This document shows, piece by piece, positions 1 to 44,749 of a DNA stretch of 44,749 bases; position 1 is the stretch's first letter, and each line of letters starts with the position of its first letter. The notes beneath the pieces were generated by a model, which saw only the letters and a program-made list of their open reading frames with translations, was not told the DNA's origin and searched no databases. This DNA is from a virus. The stretch lies in IMG/VR virus record IMGVR_UViG_3300048924_000630, positions 1 to 44,749 of that record. One strand, 5' to 3'. A program made the position numbers and the translations under genes.

Positions 1-471
1 GCGTTTGAAAAGGCCGTCTTGCCCAGCAATGGCAATCCCGGCTTTTATCAGTTATGGGCAAATCTTGCTGATGCACAGCGCTGGATACCCGCGCAGAAAG
101 AGGCGTCGCAGCAGTCTTATCGGCGAGCCATCGAACTGCTTACGCCAGTCCTGGCACGCATGCCGGATGACGCGACACTCAACTCGCGCATGGCGCTGTT
201 TTCGGCCTATGTAGGCGCAACCAAGCAGGCGCTGACGAGTATGGAAAAAGCACTTGCCATCGCCCCTCAATTGCCAGATGTCCAATTCCGAGCGACTTTG
301 ACCCATGAACTAACAGGCAACCGCACCGCAGCCTTGGCAGCACTGCAGGAGGCCGCAAAGCTGGGCTACCCACTCAACCTGATCGAGTCAGCTCCCGATC
401 TGTTGAACCTCAGGCGAGATACTCGCTATCAGCAACTTATGACCAATATGAAAAGAGATCGTAGAACATGA
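1..471 (+). CDS. TPR-repeat protein, C-terminal part (5' end outside window)
   Basis: The reading frame is open from base 1, so the gene starts before the window; 156 C-terminal residues are visible. They form helical pairs typical of tetratricopeptide repeats: an Ala/Leu-rich helix ending ALAIAPQLPDVQFRATL, followed by a second pair around NRTAALAALQEAAKLGYP. TPR units bind partner proteins; such tails occur on transcriptional activators, kinases and cyclases, and the N-terminal domain that would tell which is missing. The next gene overlaps its stop by ATGA, so the two are probably co-transcribed. This is host DNA left of the prophage. The function is not recognisable from this fragment. 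Confidence 0.75.
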   Translation, partial: AFEKAVLPSNGNPGFYQLWANLADAQRWIPAQKEASQQSYRRAIELLTPVLARMPDDATLNSRMALFSAYVGATKQALTSMEKALAIAPQLPDVQFRATLTHELTGNRTAALAALQEAAKLGYPLNLIESAPDLLNLRRDTRYQQLMTNMKRDRRT

Positions 472-1028
472 CGCCTGTCAGCCCCTGGATGAAATTATCC
501 GTACATTTTGATGCAGACCAGATCACAAACCAGCTCGACTATAGCTTTACTTCATGCGACGGGACAGCCGACCCGCGCCATGGTCCATATATGGGTGGGG
601 TGCATTTCCAGAAAGGACAACATGTTTACCTTGATGTCACCTGTTGCGGCTCCAAGGATCGTGGTTTTACCGCCTTCCAGATCATCGATTGCACCATTGT
701 AACCGTGCCGCAACTACTGCAGATCGGCCCGAAAATGCCGACTGTTTATTCCCTCCCGTCGCCATTCCTTCAAGCAATAGGCGCTACCTACAGCCTGCCG
801 CTGGACTTCGAATCGCATTTGCTGCCGCCGGACCCGGCCCAGCCCGACCTGCGGCACATTCGCCAGGAATGGAAACATAACCTGGATGTGGGCCATGCAA
901 ACGGTCGCTGGGAACTGTCGTTTGTCATGACGGTCCGGATCACCCGCAGCGAAGGCGACCAGACCGAATTGCGTGTGTTTTCATTCGATCCAGAAAGCTC
1001 CGTCGGCGACGCCTGGGGCCAGGGTTAA
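468..1028 (+). CDS. Hypothetical protein, co-transcribed with TPR gene
   Basis: A 186-residue soluble-looking protein whose ATG overlaps the stop of the TPR gene (ATGA), implying translational coupling. I do not recognise the family. It has no signal peptide or membrane segment. It contains a CC pair in a strand-rich stretch (LDVTCCGSKDRGFTAFQIID) and ends with several short beta-strand-like segments, so an all-beta fold is likely. Codon use matches the host flank. It lies in the chromosome, upstream of the mutS start. Confidence 0.7.
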   Translation: MTPVSPWMKLSVHFDADQITNQLDYSFTSCDGTADPRHGPYMGGVHFQKGQHVYLDVTCCGSKDRGFTAFQIIDCTIVTVPQLLQIGPKMPTVYSLPSPFLQAIGATYSLPLDFESHLLPPDPAQPDLRHIRQEWKHNLDVGHANGRWELSFVMTVRITRSEGDQTELRVFSFDPESSVGDAWGQG

Positions 1029-1454
1029 TTTCGCTACTCCACGGCTACCTCGCCGCAGGTGACGGATTAAAGCTTCCTGCCAGTTTTCGGGCCAAGACAT
1101 CCTTGGTGTTTGGGCCTGCCTGGCGATAGCGACGCAAACGTATTAAATCTGCAACATCAACGAGGACCGGCACAAAACACCACTATCCCGCCCCTACTTG
1201 CTGTCCCAGCCGGGTGCTGGGCCATTGAACGCACCTTTGCCAGTCAAATGCGTTACTGGTGCGTGCTGCCTGGCAGCGCCACCGGCGCGGCTTTTTCACA
1301 TCCGCACGCAATACGCCGCCCCGCCCGCCGAAAGCGGTAAAATGACGGCCTTGGACTCAAGCCTCGCCTAGCAGCGCGGCCTTGAACGCACACAGCACCA
1401 CCCACAGCCCGGCAGGCATGTCTTTCCTGCCGCCGGACCAACGACAAAGAACAC
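1029..1454. other. Intergenic region upstream of mutS
   Basis: I see no convincing coding frame in these 426 bases. A short GC hairpin (GCGCC at 1276-1280, GGCGC at 1284-1288) followed by five T at 1292-1296 could be a weak terminator for the two upstream genes. TAAAAT at 1338-1343 is a plausible -10 box for mutS, without a good -35 partner. Both assignments are tentative. Confidence 0.35.
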
Positions 1455-1550
1455 ATGACCACCGTCCCAAAAGAAATCAACGCCGCAGCGGCAAAGAAGA
1501 ATTCGGCTGAAAAGCTTACGCCAATGATGCAACAGCGTATTTCCCTATAG
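1455..1550 (+). pseudogene. mutS: mutS 5' end, truncated by prophage insertion
   Basis: The ATG at 1455 opens a frame of 31 codons. The first 27 look like a betaproteobacterial MutS N-terminus: a variable basic/alanine-rich leader followed by EKLTPMMQQ, which matches the conserved TPMMQQ motif at the start of the MutS mismatch-recognition domain. In MutS this motif continues YL(R/G)xK; here it changes to RISL and a stop at 1548-1550. Family match is therefore lost at about base 1535, and the sequence beyond is phage-like. The rest of the gene should lie to the right of the window, in the same orientation. MutS binds mismatches and starts methyl-independent repair with MutL; a split gene would give a mutator unless the phage end supplies a new promoter and start. 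Confidence 0.75.
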
Positions 1551-1569
1551 AGAAGCGATTCATTTAGTG

Positions 1570-1594
1570 AAAGCTACGCCAAAAGGTACGCTTT
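1570..1594 (-). other. Left integrase arm-type sites (predicted)
   Basis: Read on the minus strand, this stretch contains AAGCGTA (1593-1587) and GCGTAGCTTT (1579-1570), 14 bases apart. The right end carries the same two words, 13 bases apart, on the plus strand at 44717-44739. Paired arm sites in inverted orientation at both ends of an integrated element are what a P4/lambda-type tyrosine integrase needs. They lie 35-60 bp inside the mutS breakpoint. The assignment is inferred from the repeats alone. Confidence 0.55.
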
Positions 1595-1609
1595 CAAATG
1601 GAGAATAAA

Positions 1610-2059
1610 ATGCCTAAAAGAAAGAAAAATCGAGAGGTTAGCAAGCCCGATACTGGCAGTCACATTTCATTTAAGAACAGTAGTGCCAATAACAACGGAC
1701 GCAATGGCGTGTCGATTGGATATGGGATCACTCACATATCATTTGACAGATTTCAAGCCGACGGAAACGGCGGCGATGGTATTGCAATTCAAGGTCGTGA
1801 AAAAGATGCAGTTTTACTCACTTTACGTGAACTGAGCAAGGAACTCGAGAAAACTGACAATACAGACGCACTCAAGATCCTCGTCACGGAATGCGAGCAA
1901 GAGGTGAAGAAGCCAGGGACGGATATGAGTCGCCTCAGCTCCATCATGCAGACAGTCAAATCTGTCTCGGCAAGCGCGATTGAGTTCATACCAAAAATTT
2001 CTACCGCTATAGACTCAGTTATCTCTGCGATTAATTCGTTAAAGGATACACAGCCATAG
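1610..2059 (+). CDS. Hypothetical cargo protein at prophage left end
   Basis: I chose the ATG at 1610 (149 residues) over the one at 1598 because GGAG at 1600-1603 sits at good ribosome-binding distance. The N-terminus is basic (PKRKKNR). Next come two similar glycine/asparagine-rich turns, NNNGRNGVSI and GNGGDGIAIQG, which resemble coils of a right-handed beta-helix. The C-terminal half is helical and ends with an amphipathic stretch around SAIEFIPKISTAIDSVISAI. I do not recognise a family. Base composition is lower in GC than the structural genes, as usual for cargo genes. It lies between the arm sites and a tRNA-His scar and probably has its own promoter. Confidence 0.6.
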   Translation: MPKRKKNREVSKPDTGSHISFKNSSANNNGRNGVSIGYGITHISFDRFQADGNGGDGIAIQGREKDAVLLTLRELSKELEKTDNTDALKILVTECEQEVKKPGTDMSRLSSIMQTVKSVSASAIEFIPKISTAIDSVISAINSLKDTQP

Positions 2060-2075
2060 TAGTTTTATGGCGCTG

Positions 2076-2122
2076 CAGGATTGTGATTCCTGTTGTCGTG
2101 GGTTCGAGCCCCATCAGCCACC
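2076..2122 (+). pseudogene. tRNA-His (GTG) 3' half, integration scar
   Basis: The sequence runs from the anticodon arm to the discriminator base of tRNA-His: stem CAGGA/TCCTG around loop TTGTGAT (anticodon GTG at 2083-2085), variable loop, T arm GTGGG-TTCGAGC-CCCAT, 3' acceptor strand CAGCCAC and C at 2122. The CCA is degenerate (GCA). The 5' acceptor strand and D arm are absent upstream, so it is not a functional tRNA. A break exactly at the anticodon stem is typical of the displaced attachment half left by a tRNA-targeting integrase. Confidence 0.8.
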
Positions 2123-2147
2123 GCACAGAATGAGTAGGAAAATCAAA

Positions 2148-2180
2148 GGGTTACACGCTTCGGCTTGTAACCCTTTTTTT
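2148..2180 (+). terminator. Rho-independent terminator after tRNA-His fragment
   Basis: GGGTTACA (2148-2155) pairs with TGTAACCC (2166-2173) around a TTCG-capped loop, followed by seven T. It has the look of the native terminator of a tRNA gene, moved together with the tRNA-His fragment. It now also separates the cargo gene from the convergent umuC. Confidence 0.85.
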
Positions 2181-2282
2181 GCATTTTCCAACGGTTTTTC
2201 AAACTTTCCAACGAGTGCCGTCTCCTCCGGGACATCGAGCCCGGCATATTGACTGGGAAATTACTCAAGCAGAGGAAGCCGC

Positions 2283-3584
2283 CTACTTCGCCAGCACTTT
2301 CGGCAGCTCGGTCCAATTGGTGGTGTATCGGGGCGTCCGATTTTCCGACAACATTGCCCAGCGCCTGACAAAGCCAGCAGATCCAAGGTGTACGGTGTCG
2401 CGTCCGAATCGCTCATTTAACGCATCGAGGGCAGCCATCGCCCGCACTGATTGAGCCCTGTCCCGGCCAGCATCAAACAAGATGCCCTGGCGCTTGGTAT
2501 CCGGCTGCAGATCCATCAGCATGATCCCGGCCTTCTTGTAATTGAAGCCATCGCGAAAAATCATGGCCAGGCCATGCAGTGCGGCGCCGGCCAGGACGCG
2601 GTTATCGGCACTGGGTTCCACCAAGGGGATGGTAATGCCATTGCTGTATTGCTTGTCTTGTTCGCGGAATCGGTTCGTTTGCACAAAAACATGGACAGCC
2701 CCGCACAGGGAGTGCTGGCCGCGCAACTTATCGCCGGCACGCGCGACGTAGGTCGATATCGATTCGCCCAGCTCGGCCGCCGTCATGACCATGGCGCCGA
2801 AGGAGCGCGACGACACAATCTCTTTGCGCGGTGGCGCCACCTCCTCCAGCTCCAGACAGGAAATCCCACGCAGCTCGTTGCACGTGCGCTCGAGCACGAC
2901 GCCGAAATGTGCCCGCATGGTGCTCGGTGGCGCATCTTTCAGGTCTTGCACGGTGCTAATGCCCATCGAGCGCAACTTAGCGCCGATGCGACGGCCCACA
3001 CCCCACACCTCACCGACGTCGATGCGCTGCAGCAGCCAGGCGGTACGCGCCGCCGACATAGTCGTGAAGTCGGCCACGCTATCGAACAGCGGGAATTTCT
3101 TTGCGACATGATTGGCCAGCTTGGCCAAGGTCTTCGACTGGCCTACGCCGACACAAACAGGCAGACTGGTCCACCGGGCCACCTTGGCGCGGATATCTTG
3201 CCCCATGGCTGTCGGCGAAGCCCACAGGCCGCCCAAGCCATTCAGGCTGAGAAACGATTCATCGATGGAGTAGACCTCGACATTGGGACTGTAGGTCCGC
3301 AGGATGGTCATGATGCGGTTGCTCATGTCAGCGTACAAGGTATAGTTTGACGATAAGCCGACTATTCCGTGCTGGCGCGCCAGGTCGCGCATCTGGAACC
3401 AGGGTGCGCCCATCGGCACGCCCAGGGCCTTCACCTCGTTCGACCTGGCCACGGCACAGCCATCATTATTGGACAGCACAACCACCGGGCGGTCGCGCAA
3501 GCGCGGGTTGAAGGCGCGCTCACAGCTGACGTACATATTGTTGACGTCGACAAGCGCAAATATCTGCTTCGTCGGATCGCTCAT
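2283..3584 (-). CDS. umuC: DNA polymerase V catalytic subunit UmuC
   Basis: A 433-residue Y-family translesion polymerase, close to the usual 420-430. The catalytic acidic residues are visible: D13 in LVDVNNMY and D108-E109 in YSIDESF. The N-terminal palm/finger part is followed by an HhH region (GVGRRIGAKLRSMGI) and the little-finger domain; the C-terminus is complete. With two cleaved UmuD subunits it forms Pol V, which copies damaged DNA with low fidelity after RecA activation. Its ATG starts one base after the umuD stop, so the pair is translationally coupled under the LexA box at 4070-4089. In a prophage it is cargo. Confidence 0.97.
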   Translation of the reverse strand: MSDPTKQIFALVDVNNMYVSCERAFNPRLRDRPVVVLSNNDGCAVARSNEVKALGVPMGAPWFQMRDLARQHGIVGLSSNYTLYADMSNRIMTILRTYSPNVEVYSIDESFLSLNGLGGLWASPTAMGQDIRAKVARWTSLPVCVGVGQSKTLAKLANHVAKKFPLFDSVADFTTMSAARTAWLLQRIDVGEVWGVGRRIGAKLRSMGISTVQDLKDAPPSTMRAHFGVVLERTCNELRGISCLELEEVAPPRKEIVSSRSFGAMVMTAAELGESISTYVARAGDKLRGQHSLCGAVHVFVQTNRFREQDKQYSNGITIPLVEPSADNRVLAGAALHGLAMIFRDGFNYKKAGIMLMDLQPDTKRQGILFDAGRDRAQSVRAMAALDALNERFGRDTVHLGSAGFVRRWAMLSENRTPRYTTNWTELPKVLAK

Positions 3585-3585
3585 A

Positions 3586-4059
3586 TCACACCCGCAGCTT
3601 GCGTACGACGCCCGTCACCACACCCCAAATTTGCAGTTCACTACCCTCGGCCAGGCAGATCGCCTTGTACGCCGGATTGTCCGGGCGCAGCTCTACCCTA
3701 CCCCGCTGGCAATAAAGGCGCTTGAGGGTATACTCGGCATCGATGACGGCAATGACAATGTGACCATGCAAAGGCGCGACGGAGCGGTCGACCACCACCT
3801 TGTCGCCATCCAGTATGCCTGCGTCGCGCATCGAGTCGCCCTCGACGGTGAAAAAGAACGAGGCGGCCTTGTGCTGCACCAGCAGCGCGTTCAGGTCCAG
3901 GCCATCTTCGGTATAGTCGGCAGCCGGCGACGGAAATCCGGCGGATATCCGATGGGAAATTTCCGGCCGCGCACTGGGGGTTGGGTACTGCGCAAGCGGC
4001 AATGGCACCTGCGATACACCGGGCTGGCTAGGTTGAAGTATTAATAAGGTTGCATTCAT
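3586..4059 (-). CDS. umuD: UmuD, Pol V self-cleaving subunit
   Basis: A 157-residue S24 peptidase-fold protein. The self-cleavage site is A40-G41 in SAGFPSPAADY. The catalytic dyad is S76 (EGDSM) and K113 (YTLKRL), with the same 37-residue spacing as E. coli UmuD S60/K97. RecA filaments stimulate the cleavage, giving UmuD' for Pol V. The N-terminal arm is about 16 residues longer than in E. coli. The start codon lies only 10 bases from the LexA box, and no good Shine-Dalgarno sequence is visible. Confidence 0.96.
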   Translation of the reverse strand: MNATLLILQPSQPGVSQVPLPLAQYPTPSARPEISHRISAGFPSPAADYTEDGLDLNALLVQHKAASFFFTVEGDSMRDAGILDGDKVVVDRSVAPLHGHIVIAVIDAEYTLKRLYCQRGRVELRPDNPAYKAICLAEGSELQIWGVVTGVVRKLRV

Positions 4060-4069
4060 GGCTGGCTAA

Positions 4070-4089
4070 TACTGTGTTTTTATACAGTA
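4070..4089 (-). promoter_or_regulatory. LexA (SOS) box of umuDC
   Basis: TACTGTGTTTTTATACAGTA fits the gammaproteobacterial/betaproteobacterial LexA consensus CTG-N10-CAG with both outer TA pairs. It lies directly upstream of umuD and overlaps the likely -10 region (TATACT on the minus strand). DNA damage should therefore derepress umuDC through host LexA. Confidence 0.92.
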
Positions 4090-4128
4090 TATCGACCGAA
4101 GCCAGAAACAGGAAGTATAAAATTGTTT

Positions 4129-4812
4129 CTAGAAAAGTGAGTCCGGTGGCGCCGTATCGGCCTTTGCCGCAGTTTTCGCTCTTGAGCGTGGGGGCAAGGG
4201 ATCAGGCTGAGCGACAAGTAGGTCGGTGGGATACTGTCGATAAACATCCTCTTCCGACACCAGCGAGCCGTCCAGCCAGCCTTGATACTGGTGCGGGTCC
4301 AGGATCATCACCATACGCTTTTCATCGTCAGGCTTGTGGAAGCGCTGCATCAGTGGGTGCCCATCGGCGTTGATCGTCAGCATTGAGAACGAAAGCAGCT
4401 GATCCGCCGGCCGATACTCCCAGATACCAGCAATGGCCACCGGGCCGCCGTCTGCGCGCTCGATGCGCCAGCGCACGGGCTTGCCGGTTTCATAGTTGGG
4501 TTCGAAGAAGTTGGCCGCCGGAATGATACAGAACTGCTTGCGCTTCCAGGCGTTTCGGAAGGATGGCTTGCTGGCCACCGTCTCGGTGCGTGCGTTATAG
4601 GTCTGGCGGGCCAGCTTCAAATCCGCCCAATGTGGCACCATGCCGAACATGGCAGGGGCGATTTCCAGCTTACTTGGCGCCTCGTGCGAACCACGCAGAA
4701 TAGGCGCCATATAGCCGGGCCAAGCCTCGGTCGGAAGATCGAGTTGAGAAGATCGAACACCGAAGCGATCCTCGATCTGCTTGTTAAGGCTGGGAGTGTA
4801 GTCAGCGCACAT
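4129..4812 (-). CDS. yedK: SOS response-associated peptidase (SRAP/YedK, HMCES family)
   Basis: A 227-residue SRAP protein. The key residues are present: C2 directly after the initiator Met (MCADYTP), N73 in YNARTET, E104 in FFEPNYE and H159 in RFHKP. In this family Cys2 forms a covalent thiazolidine link to abasic sites in single-stranded DNA and shields them from error-prone processing. C2 fixes the start at 4812; GAGG lies about ten bases upstream. It reads toward umuDC but has no obvious LexA box of its own. Its pairing with Pol V suggests a damage-tolerance cassette. Confidence 0.95.
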   Translation of the reverse strand: MCADYTPSLNKQIEDRFGVRSSQLDLPTEAWPGYMAPILRGSHEAPSKLEIAPAMFGMVPHWADLKLARQTYNARTETVASKPSFRNAWKRKQFCIIPAANFFEPNYETGKPVRWRIERADGGPVAIAGIWEYRPADQLLSFSMLTINADGHPLMQRFHKPDDEKRMVMILDPHQYQGWLDGSLVSEEDVYRQYPTDLLVAQPDPLPPRSRAKTAAKADTAPPDSLF

Positions 4813-4921
4813 GTATGTCGAACCTCAAAGGGTTAAAACCACGTCCATTTTATACTTCTAGCTTGTGCATGACTTCGATGTATTTAGATCACATCCGGCA
4901 GTTTCATCCGTAAAGACATCC

Positions 4922-4978
4922 TTACTATCCAATATAGTTGTTAAATATAGTATGATTCAGAACGTTTCCGAACGGAAA
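4922..4978 (+). promoter_or_regulatory. mqsRA promoter and probable operator
   Basis: TTACTA (4922-4927) and TATAGT (4946-4951), 18 bases apart, form a plausible sigma-70 promoter. Just downstream lies a perfect inverted repeat, TTTCCG-AA-CGGAAA (4965-4978), a good candidate site for autoregulation by the MqsA antitoxin. It is not the E. coli MqsA operator sequence, so the link is inferred from position. Confidence 0.5.
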
Positions 4979-5007
4979 TGCCTTTGTAGACCGAAGAACT
5001 GACGTGT

Positions 5008-5538
5008 ATGAAGTCCGAAACGTTGTCACGATTCGATTACTCGAATACGGTTTGTCAAATTTCACCAAATAGGTTAATATTGAATAACTCGCCGAACTTA
5101 GCACCGAACTTAGAACCGGATAAAACAGCACCAGCAGCAGCTACAACTGCCGCTGCTGTAGCGGTAGCGGTAGCACCAACAGTAGCGGCAGCCGTTGTGA
5201 CAGCAGCACTTCCTGTGGCAAGTAGCATTCCGCCTGCGAAGTTGCCACCACACACTCCGCTGGGCACCATGCAGGCACTTGCTGCGGCTGGAAAGGTCAG
5301 TACAACGATGTCTTCCCTTGCGTCAGCTGCAGCCCTAGACATGGACGTGAACGACATGATCACGACGGTGCTGGGGTTGACGATGGATGACTTCTACAAA
5401 ACCATGCCAGTTATTACTGATAGTTCGCGATGGCAAGATGTGTATCACGCTAAGACTGCCATTGGTCTTCTTTATGTAAAGTTGCAATTAGACAATGGCG
5501 CTGTGAATATGAGGATAGTATCCTTCAAGGAGAAATGA
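5008..5538 (+). CDS. mqsR: MqsR-family toxin (mRNA interferase) with long N-terminal extension
   Basis: Residues 78-176 match MqsR, a GCU-preferring RelE-fold ribonuclease that inhibits translation. The end VSFKEK and the motifs DFYKTM, RWQDVY and LYVKL are conserved, so the active-site equivalents of E. coli K56, Q68 and Y81 are present as K131, Q143 and Y156. MqsR is normally about 98 residues; here about 77 residues precede it, including a run of almost only Ala, Val, Thr and Pro (residues 41-75). The ATG at 5008 has only a weak ribosome-binding site. GTG at 5215 would give a near-normal 107-residue protein but lacks a Shine-Dalgarno sequence. As in E. coli, the toxin gene precedes the antitoxin gene. 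Confidence 0.88.
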   Translation: MKSETLSRFDYSNTVCQISPNRLILNNSPNLAPNLEPDKTAPAAATTAAAVAVAVAPTVAAAVVTAALPVASSIPPAKLPPHTPLGTMQALAAAGKVSTTMSSLASAAALDMDVNDMITTVLGLTMDDFYKTMPVITDSSRWQDVYHAKTAIGLLYVKLQLDNGAVNMRIVSFKEK

Positions 5539-5539
5539 T

Positions 5540-6028
5540 ATGAACTGCCCAGAATGTGATGGCACCATGGTGCACGAAAAACGCGATATGCCCTACTCTT
5601 ACAAGGGCGACGTCACAATGATTACTGGCGTAGAAGGCAACTACTGTAGTGATTGCGACGAAGTAGTATTGGACTTAGAAGAGTCACGACGTGTTAGCGC
5701 AGCAATGTTGGCATTTAATAAGCATGTGAATGCAGGAATATTGCCGCCTGAATATATTACAAATGTTCGAAAAAAATTAGGGATCAATCGCCGCGAAGCG
5801 GGTGTTGTTTTTGGCGGTGGCCCCAACGCGTTTTCACGATACGAGTCTGGTAGGACCAACCCATCTACACCGTTGGTACTTATGTTGAAACTTTTAGACA
5901 AATACCCAGAACTGTGGGTTGAAGTTAAAGGTACAGCGTTAACAGATGATGAGGAAGGCCTACGTGATACGCGTGTGCCTGAACAGCCTGTAGAGGCCGA
6001 GTTCGAAAGAGAACGACGATATGCATAA
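5540..6028 (+). CDS. mqsA: MqsA-family antitoxin / HTH regulator
   Basis: A 162-residue two-domain antitoxin. The N-terminal zinc domain has C3-x2-C6 and C36-x2-C39. The C-terminal part (about residues 75-130) is an Xre-type helix-turn-helix with the MqsA-like VVFGGGPNAFSRYESG motif. MqsA binds and neutralises MqsR and represses the operon. AAGGAG at 5528-5532, inside the end of mqsR, serves its ATG one base after the toxin stop, so the two are translated together. The last 30 residues (acidic, then REREER-like) exceed the E. coli protein. Confidence 0.93.
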   Translation: MNCPECDGTMVHEKRDMPYSYKGDVTMITGVEGNYCSDCDEVVLDLEESRRVSAAMLAFNKHVNAGILPPEYITNVRKKLGINRREAGVVFGGGPNAFSRYESGRTNPSTPLVLMLKLLDKYPELWVEVKGTALTDDEEGLRDTRVPEQPVEAEFERERRYA

Positions 6029-6039
6029 CGCATAAAAAC

Positions 6040-6076
6040 AAGTATAAAGAGCAACCTATGGTTGCTCTTTATACTT
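6040..6076 (+). terminator. Long perfect hairpin after mqsRA
   Basis: AAGTATAAAGAGCAACC (6040-6056) and its exact complement (6060-6076) form a 17-bp stem with a three-base loop. It begins 12 bases after the mqsA stop and ends in a short T-rich stretch. It probably terminates mqsRA or stabilises the 3' end of the mRNA. The 200 bases after it (to 6283) show no gene. Confidence 0.65.
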
Positions 6077-6283
6077 CTAACCCAGTTGCGTAACAGAATG
6101 CTAGATTTCCTTTACCCTTGTTACCGCGACAGCAGTCAAAGCTTCGCTTTCACTAACCGATCATCACAACCAGCAATGGACCTCTTTAACTCTCCCGCTC
6201 AAACTTGAGGCCACGTGCCGGCTCCTTATCAGTAGTCAAACTACTTTACCGACCGTACGGCTGGCACCAAATTATCAACCTAC

Positions 6284-7072
6284 TCAAAATAGCCCAGCAG
6301 GCTCTGATGCCCTGTCCCAGCTATAAATGATTAACTCCTTCCGTTCCACTGCCTTGCCACCACCTCCAACGTTGTAATGGATACCCGTTGTATCCATCTG
6401 GAAGCGCCCGAAGACGCGCCGGATGTCCGGGTGGTCATTCAGGCTCAAGATGGCCTTACCCTTCAGCCGGGCCATCAGCTCGGCCATCTTCTCGTACTGG
6501 GCGAATTCAAACTCAACGCCATATCCTGCTGTCTCCCAGTACGGCGGATCCAGGTAAAACAGCGTATGCGGTCGGTCGTAGCGCTCCATGCACTTGTACC
6601 AATCAAGGTTCTCGATGTAGGCGCCAGAAAGGCGCAGGTGCGCTGCCGACAGGTTCTCCTCGATACGCAGCAGGTTGAGCGGCGGCGCCGTGGTCGCCGT
6701 GCCCCACGTCTGGCCGTCGACCTTGCCGCCGAAGGCATGCTGCTGCAGGTAGAAGAAACGGGCCGCGCGTTGCAGATCCGTCAGGGTGTGCGGAGGCGTA
6801 TCCTGCAGCCACTTGAACACCTCGCGGCTCGACAGCGCCCATTTGAACTGACGCACGAATTCCTCCAAGTGATTCTTGACGACGCGGTAAAGATTGATCA
6901 GCTCGCCGTTCACGTCGTTCAGCACCTCGACCTCGGCCGGCGGCCGCATGAAGTACAGCGCGGCGCCGCCGGCGAAGACCTCGACGTAGCAAGTGTGGGG
7001 CGGAAATTGCGGGATGATGCGGTCGGCCAGGCGTCGTTTGCCGCCGATCCAGGGGATGATGGGTAGTGCCAA
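6284..7072 (-). CDS. dam: DNA adenine methylase (D12 class, phage Dam)
   Basis: A 262-residue N6-adenine methyltransferase of the D12 class. It has the AdoMet-binding N-terminus PWIGGKRRLADRI with FAGGAAL (motif I) and the catalytic DPPY (motif IV, about residue 175) in LFYLDPPYWE. It would methylate adenine, probably GATC, protecting phage DNA or timing its packaging. The start is TTG at 7072: AGGAGGT (7086-7080) lies seven bases upstream and no ATG is suitably placed. It follows the lysis genes on the same strand after 112 bases. Confidence 0.93.
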   Translation of the reverse strand: MALPIIPWIGGKRRLADRIIPQFPPHTCYVEVFAGGAALYFMRPPAEVEVLNDVNGELINLYRVVKNHLEEFVRQFKWALSSREVFKWLQDTPPHTLTDLQRAARFFYLQQHAFGGKVDGQTWGTATTAPPLNLLRIEENLSAAHLRLSGAYIENLDWYKCMERYDRPHTLFYLDPPYWETAGYGVEFEFAQYEKMAELMARLKGKAILSLNDHPDIRRVFGRFQMDTTGIHYNVGGGGKAVERKELIIYSWDRASEPAGLF

Positions 7073-43426: not shown

Positions 43427-44704
43427 TCACAAAGCTTCTAGGTGCGCACTAAGCCGGCCCAGCCACTCTCTGCGCTCTTTGTCGTACGCGTGCCTGTTAT
43501 AGACGCCTATGACACCCTTCTTCATGTGTCCCAGCACCGCCTCTGCAACCTCTTCCGTGCACCCAAGTATTGCTAACTGCGTGCGGCAGCTGCGTCGCAG
43601 ATCGTGCGGCGCCCAGTTCGTGACAGGCAGTCGTGGTCGATAGTCTTCCGGTTTCGTTTCGCTGTACGGCATATGCATCCAAACCGCACAACCCACCGAT
43701 TTTTGCTCCATGTACCCCACCTTTCCGTACGACTCAAAAAGGTACTTTCCTTTCACCGCCCCCATGCGACGACGTACCACAACCTCCGCCCTGCCGACCA
43801 GCGGAACGCGCAGATCTGTAGCATGCTCACGCCATGAATTCTTTGTCTTCGCCTTTGGAATCGTCCACCAGAGCCCGTCAGCCTCCTCACTGATTTCGGT
43901 CACCTCCATGGCCATAATTTCCGAGCCGCGCGTGCAAGTCCACAAGTACAGCGTCAACGCATCACACACCGCCTTCGAAAAATTTGGCAACCACTTGATC
44001 AAGGTCGCCAGCTCTTCGGCGCTCAACACACGCTTGACGGGCCCGGCCTGGACGCCTTGCACCACTCGCCCCTTGCTTCGCAACTTGCCACGCATTATCA
44101 GGCGCCACCAGTTTGGCACGGTATCTGGCAGGCGCCCTGCATCGTGGACGTAGTCCCAAGCAGAACCAAGCTCAGCTCGTAGCTTGGCGGCCTGGACGGG
44201 AATATGCGCAAAGCTCTCTATCAGGTCGAACGCATCGGAGCGAGAAACCTCTGCGGCGGGCATGCCACCAAATTCGCCCAGCATTGTTTCAAACATGCGC
44301 GTCACTTCCTTGACGCCCTTTTCGCCACGATTGCGCGATAAGTGGCCAGCCACATACATGTCCGCTACGCGCCGCACCGTCAGCAACGCTTTTGCCTTGC
44401 GTTCACGCTCTGCTTCCGTGGCTTGGCGCGACTGCGCTCGCACCTCGCGTTTATCGACAGCAAGGTCGATGCCGGCACTGCGCGCGCCACGCAGGCGCTC
44501 CCACTCAACCGTCGCCGCCGCTAGCGAGATCGCTGGCCACTCGCCAATCTTGGTTTGCCGCATGCGCCCATCAAGCGGGCTTTTATAGCGATATATCCAC
44601 GATCTCTTCGACTTTGTAGCCTCAAGTCGCAGCCCTGGGCAGTCGGAAATGGTAAAGTGTTGGCCAGCCGCGAGCAGCTTTGCCGCTCTTGCATCGAATT
44701 GCAT
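43427..44704 (-). CDS. int: Tyrosine-type integrase (P4-like)
   Basis: A 425-residue site-specific recombinase. The N-terminal arm-binding domain (FTISDCPGLRLEATKSK, IYRYKSPLDGRMRQTKIG) is followed by a core-binding helical part and the catalytic domain. R259 (CTRGSE), H367/R370 (PHDLRRS), H393 (LGHM) and nucleophile Y402 (VYNRH) are all present. I chose ATG 44704 because GGGGTGAG directly precedes it; an ATG at 44749 would read through the arm sites. It would integrate the phage into mutS and, with AlpA, excise it. Confidence 0.96.
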   Translation of the reverse strand: MQFDARAAKLLAAGQHFTISDCPGLRLEATKSKRSWIYRYKSPLDGRMRQTKIGEWPAISLAAATVEWERLRGARSAGIDLAVDKREVRAQSRQATEAERERKAKALLTVRRVADMYVAGHLSRNRGEKGVKEVTRMFETMLGEFGGMPAAEVSRSDAFDLIESFAHIPVQAAKLRAELGSAWDYVHDAGRLPDTVPNWWRLIMRGKLRSKGRVVQGVQAGPVKRVLSAEELATLIKWLPNFSKAVCDALTLYLWTCTRGSEIMAMEVTEISEEADGLWWTIPKAKTKNSWREHATDLRVPLVGRAEVVVRRRMGAVKGKYLFESYGKVGYMEQKSVGCAVWMHMPYSETKPEDYRPRLPVTNWAPHDLRRSCRTQLAILGCTEEVAEAVLGHMKKGVIGVYNRHAYDKERREWLGRLSAHLEAL

Positions 44705-44716
44705 ACTCACCCCAAT

Positions 44717-44740
44717 AAGCGTAGGTCCAGCGTAGCTTTT
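44717..44740 (+). other. Right integrase arm-type sites (predicted)
   Basis: AAGCGTA (44717-44723) and GCGTAGCTTT (44730-44739) repeat the words found in inverted orientation at 1570-1593. They overlap the int promoter region, so integrase could repress its own gene. The core site and the rest of mutS should follow just outside the window. Confidence 0.55.
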
Positions 44741-44749
44741 ATCCAGCAT

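Follow-up and report, generated by a model that had tools for sequence, protein, structure and literature searches.

A temperate phage at the mutS integration site with a SRAP-umuD-umuC cassette that looks like swappable cargo

The IMG/VR record IMGVR_UViG_3300048924_000630, whose entire 44,749 bases we analyzed and refer to here as the window, combines a fragment of host mutS with phage genes and with a cassette encoding DNA polymerase V (Pol V) and a SRAP protein. Comparison with related elements makes it very probable that this is a phage that integrates at mutS and restores the gene from its own sequence, and that an independently acquired Pol V cargo has met it here by chance. The phage is an ordinary mosaic, a new combination of known parts, and the mechanism of restarting mutS is already published.

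The element and its junction with mutS

Matches to PHROGs in the window include tail sheath, baseplate, tape measure, portal and major head proteins together with a large terminase, a primase/helicase and a CI-like repressor, which identify the element as a contractile-tailed temperate phage, and a Janthinobacterium-like bacterium is the best explanation for the host of the prophage. The integrase (Table 1) probably starts at an internal ATG near position 44704, with the record stopping just past that ATG. It adjoins a gene for a protein with a HEPN/Toprim N-terminal domain (PF18871, 42013-43302), possibly an uncharacterised defence gene; a defence role was considered and set aside, as the gene has no PADLOC match and no PHROG match either.

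The phage is joined to host mutS at the opposite end of the window, where native codons 1-27 occupy 1455-1535 and are followed by 4 phage-encoded codons and a stop codon at 1548-1550. The attL core lies at the same site as the 15-bp repeat ACGCCGATGATGCAG of GI8c, a prophage at mutS in Burkholderia pseudomallei MSHR305 (Tuanyok et al. 2008, PMC2612704), so that GI8c and the window have the same core at mutS in different hosts. The closest relative, IMGVR_UViG_2739367699_000002 (L019/L056), likewise has this orphan mutS fragment at its far end, and three Massilia/Duganella prophages (L050, L051 and L053) have a matching far-end fragment. A motif resembling the putative arm-type repeats at attL recurs in the phage leader at attR of relatives, and AGCTACGCC taken alone showed no enrichment within the window. 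The first-pass annotation had described the phage as mutS-disrupting; the location in mutS stands, but disruption is contradicted by the relatives, as detailed below.

Between attL and the cassette we observed a 153-aa open reading frame (1598-2059) that matches no family of Pfam, PHROGs or PADLOC, followed by a partial tRNA-His. ARAGORN predicted zero tRNA genes in the window, and in an Rfam scan of positions 1-6500 every match fell below its gathering score, including a tRNA match at 2059-2122 that scored 23 against a required 29. We rejected the tRNA-His sequence (2077-2131) as the true integration site because the fragment lies inside the element and the mutS core ends match in relatives. 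The same fragment occurs between SRAP and the integrase in Burkholderia phage Magia, which suggests that it was left from an ancestral tRNA-His att site after an integrase swap, and we keep it as a probable remnant of such a site. One viral contig (L066, IMGVR_UViG_2839354431_000004) has the cassette and the tRNA-His relic together but a 329-aa integrase, with arm-like GCGTAGTTTT repeats between the relic and that integrase.

Table 1. Coordinates of the features discussed, in window positions
Feature	Position	Strand	Basis
Orphan host mutS start, native codons 1-27 (MTTVPKEINAAAAKKNSAEKLTPMMQQ), plus 4 phage codons and stop	1455-1550	+	Translation
attL core ACGCCAATGATGCAACA, codons TPMMQ-	1518-1534	+	Found twice in each of seven bounded relatives
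Putative integrase arm-type repeats (AGCTACGCCAAAAGGTACGC)	1570-1592	+	Similar motif at other attL ends
tRNA-His 3' fragment and terminator-like hairpin	2077-2213	+	Conserved in L056 (93%) and L066 (86%)
umuC, DNA polymerase V catalytic subunit	2283-3584	-	Pfam/PHROGs
umuD, Pol V subunit (S24 autopeptidase)	3586-4059	-	Pfam/PHROGs
Predicted LexA box TACTGTGTTTTTATACAGTA, before umuD	4070-4089		Consensus scan; conserved in related cassettes
SRAP (YedK/HMCES-like)	4129-4812	-	Pfam/PHROGs; Cys2 present
MqsR/MqsA toxin-antitoxin pair, adjoining cargo in the same slot as the cassette	5008-6028	+	Pfam
P4-type tyrosine integrase, mutS-targeting kind	43427-44749	-	Pfam Arm-DNA-bind_3 and Phage_integrase

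mutS in relatives of the integrase

We collected relatives of the integrase at 16 loci from GTDB genomes and at 31 viral loci, the genome collections containing a single representative per species. Most relatives above ~49% identity with enough flanking sequence lie ~190-510 bp from the TPMMQQ codons of a mutS gene that reads away from the integrase. In the nearest, Janthinobacterium sp. PC23-8 (integrase 90% identical), mutS reads MKMQSNQELATIDKSKL-TPMMQQYMAIK..., and the start is similar at a second locus whose integrase is 91% identical (L018). Ahead of TPMMQQ the residues are unlike those of the native start at the other end of the element and therefore come with the phage. In the 14 carriers with a fully covered mutS immediately next to the integrase, the gene (MutS_I) is open over 884-948 codons with zero stops, and MutS dN/dS between carriers (Nei-Gojobori, pairwise) is 0.04-0.27, ratios by which the mutS of carriers is under purifying selection. 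A decayed ~9-kb element in mutS of a Janthinobacterium genome (L179, G080:C1:2662000-2674000) has an integrase broken by a frameshift and stop codons, and there, too, mutS is still open for 900 codons from its phage-derived start. The proposal that mismatch repair is lost upon integration is thus not supported by these relatives, the decayed prophage included, in which we see a phage-supplied start and leader and a full, uninterrupted mutS frame.

Both cores could be located in the same orientation on one contig in seven genomes, 6-62 kb apart, and TPMMQQ is in phase at both copies wherever both flanks can be read. With the cores in phase at both ends, excision should also give an intact mutS, and it is therefore predicted to be scar-free. 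No LexA-like box was present in the phage-side mutS leaders of 20 relatives, and we accordingly rejected SOS control of the phage-supplied mutS start. The search for a sigma-70 promoter in the phage mutS leader returned no clear candidate, with one weak site inside the coding part in L006 and none in L018. We also note that two identical mutS-type integrases lie 37 kb apart (L178 and G285:C17:1482706-1520739), with an attP-like junction upstream (TPMMQQ|GISPM-stop); these are apparent tandem prophages at mutS.

We propose that recombination by the P4-type integrase takes place at the conserved TPMMQQ codons within mutS and that the phage att site contributes a start codon, a leader and the opening codons as far as TPMMQQ. 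Integration would then exchange the native beginning of mutS without loss of frame, an arrangement seen directly in the relatives. The window record ends ~200-250 bp before its own mutS junction and restored start, and for this reason we infer the restored gene of this particular phage from its relatives.

The Pol V cassette and its distribution

All three cassette genes reported in the first pass (yedK, umuD and umuC) were confirmed in place on the minus strand by Pfam and PHROGs matches; they are intact and would be transcribed in the order SRAP, umuD, umuC. The UmuC homolog contains complete Y-family polymerase domains, with IMS (3.4e-36), IMS_HHH, IMS_C (9.3e-18) and DUF4113 (2.3e-20) each above cut-off, and matches PHROG 1268 ("DNA polymerase") at 4.6e-153; its translation contains the motifs FALVDVNN and SIDESF, which we take to hold the acidic catalytic residues. 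UmuD matches Peptidase_S24 (3.8e-28) and PHROG 811 ("UmuD-like", 1.5e-44) and contains ISAGFPSPAADY, EGDSM and YTLKRL; AGFPSPAADY, found alongside the latter two, presumably marks with them the cleavage site and the Ser/Lys dyad. The SRAP protein (PF02586, 1.6e-31; PHROG 1599) starts MCADY, with the N-terminal Cys2 in place. Pairwise alignments analyzed by the Nei-Gojobori method gave dN/dS of 0.02-0.09 over SRAP, umuD and umuC (~0.05 for umuC versus relatives), indicating that all three genes are maintained.

The LexA box at 4070-4089 lies ten bases ahead of the umuD start and is the sole match in the window at ≤3 mismatches to the E. coli-type consensus; 100 shuffles of the window gave zero such matches, and the box is also kept in five homologous cassettes. 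The idea that Pol V is under LexA control is therefore upheld as a prediction from a conserved site that would not be expected by chance. Since the box lies downstream of SRAP, only umuDC is shown directly behind a LexA site. The window scan found no LexA box ahead of SRAP, whose start codon is also the point where DNA similarity to other cassettes stops; we rejected placement of SRAP within the same SOS operon on the position of the box and on this boundary.

Lesion bypass by Pol V and shielding of abasic sites by SRAP are known roles of these families, from which we infer their functions here. The block would occupy a variable cargo slot beside attL, in this phage as SRAP, LexA box, umuD and umuC next to mqsRA (the MqsR frame has an unusual alanine-rich N-terminal extension of ~80 residues). 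DNA damage would inactivate LexA and induce Pol V, which may help phage DNA, host DNA or both to replicate past lesions, while SRAP would guard abasic sites in single-stranded DNA.

The distribution of the cassette is that of an element moving separately from the integrase. No UmuC-family polymerase (PF00817) was found in any of the 31 viral records with a related integrase, a lower-quality negative because such records are often trimmed and could miss far-end cargo; UmuC was also absent inside eight elements whose two ends could both be seen (those of the seven two-core genomes and G018). SRAP was present in 5 of the 31. The closest relative has its backbone, attL and tRNA-His relic in common with the window, and a ~600-bp region with a 111-aa open reading frame replaces the cassette and mqsRA. 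Massilia sp. Root418 has a different SRAP gene in that slot without umuDC, and the slots of other relatives hold SRAP alone or other genes. The same SRAP-umuD-umuC block occurs at 85-87% DNA identity in five other viral contigs, with SRAP truncated in one, and two Janthinobacterium genomes have it at comparable protein identity (the cassette-bearing loci being L063-L067, L122 and L123). The integrases of the five viral contigs have no significant similarity to that of the window, and homology between the cassettes starts and stops sharply at ~2281 and ~4814.

A survey of 392 genomes of one family (integrase E ≤ 1e-40, UmuC E ≤ 1e-60) identified the integrase in 28 and UmuC in 63, with three genomes carrying both compared to 4.5 expected. 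There was no association between the two across the 392 genomes (Fisher p = 0.60), and we rejected a positive one. The two genes are 3.5 Mb apart in one double carrier and on separate contigs in the other two, and in none are they shown in one element. The search for co-occurrence of umuDC, SRAP and mutS-targeted integrases that the first-pass annotation proposed thus turned up phages with this integrase that lack the cassette and cassette-bearing phages with unrelated integrases. From these comparisons the SRAP-umuD-umuC block looks like swappable, separately acquired cargo beside attL.

Known systems and alternative readings

Mobile elements inserted in the HTPMMQQ motif of mutS, each with its own promoter and start, have been described in Beta- and Gammaproteobacteria (Chu et al. 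2017, mBio, PMC5296598), and the present phage resembles them in the type of integrase beside mutS and in its insertion in the TPMMQQ codons, as well as in having the orphan native start on the far side (in the window) and an element-supplied start on the near side (in relatives). In Vibrio splendidus 12B01, excision left a 2-bp scar that led to hypermutation, while three other strains excised their elements without a scar (PMC5296598); the relatives analyzed here, unlike the V. splendidus element, keep phase at both cores, and no scar is predicted. A regulatory switch of mutS was proposed for elements of B. multivorans, P. putida and E. coli, and the genera Janthinobacterium and Massilia are absent from the text of that paper (PMC5296598). 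Burkholderia phage KS9 and Acidovorax phage Aval have at one genome end an integrase 56-58% identical to that of the window, and both are absent among the phage records listed for its UmuC. The SpyCI islands of Streptococcus pyogenes sit at mutL and silence it when integrated (PMC3430984); they and the window phage are both phage-like and placed at the 5' end of a mismatch-repair gene, but the relatives here keep mutS in an uninterrupted frame that appears, from dN/dS, to be under purifying selection, which speaks against SpyCI-like silencing. SRAP beside umuD-umuC is likewise known, as is prophage-borne SRAP, including in Burkholderia thailandensis (Aravind et al. 2013, PMC3765255); compared to those neighborhoods, the one in the window is on a mutS-integrated phage with a LexA box between SRAP and umuD. 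umuDC is found in many temperate phages, and Escherichia phage PHB10, Salmonella phage vB_SosS_Oslo and Cronobacter phage ENT39118 carry a Pol V whose UmuC is 45-48% identical.

The first-pass annotation suggested a mutability module, read here as a selected one, in which the prophage breaks mutS, abolishes mismatch repair and adds inducible error-prone synthesis. Two features favor it, namely that in the window the native gene breaks off after codon 27 and that LexA-controlled umuDC is on the same element. Against these stand the in-frame restoration of mutS in relatives and the distribution of the cassette (0/31 related viral records and no association in 392 genomes), and we regard the module as highly improbable. 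A chimeric or misassembled contig, artificially joining the mutS end, the cassette and the phage backbone, might produce the sharp loss of cassette homology at both edges; those edges are also consistent with cargo exchange, and a chimera is countered by L056, where attL, phage backbone and tRNA-His relic are laid out alike, and by the SRAP gene in the same slot of Massilia sp. Root418. We consider such an artifact extremely improbable.

A regulatory switch is unlikely but has precedent: mutS would be expressed from the phage leader while the element is integrated, and excision, for example during the SOS response, would restore the host promoter or leave a scar and so shift the mutation rate, with Pol V a coincident or synergistic passenger. 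This was demonstrated for the V. splendidus mobile element, whose excision scar produces hypermutators (PMC5296598), and the in-phase cores in relatives agree with a switch through scar-free excision; however, the phage-side mutS leader of 20 relatives has neither a LexA box nor a clear promoter. A related reading, in which a single prophage has mutS run from the phage leader and also delivers Pol V under LexA control, shifting host mutation supply under damage while excision switches the mutS promoter, is very doubtful. We thus favor the chance meeting, in one mutS-site phage, of a phage-restored repair gene and an independent Pol V cargo.

Comparing relatives changes the story of a mutator phage, in that mutS is given back by the element and the Pol V genes are exchangeable cargo. 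To the known but little-studied elements that control mismatch-repair genes we can add prophages of Janthinobacterium, Massilia and Duganella, among them a decayed Janthinobacterium prophage that still supplies the mutS start. Lysogeny would tune the mutation rate if expression of mutS from the phage leader differed from that driven by the host promoter.
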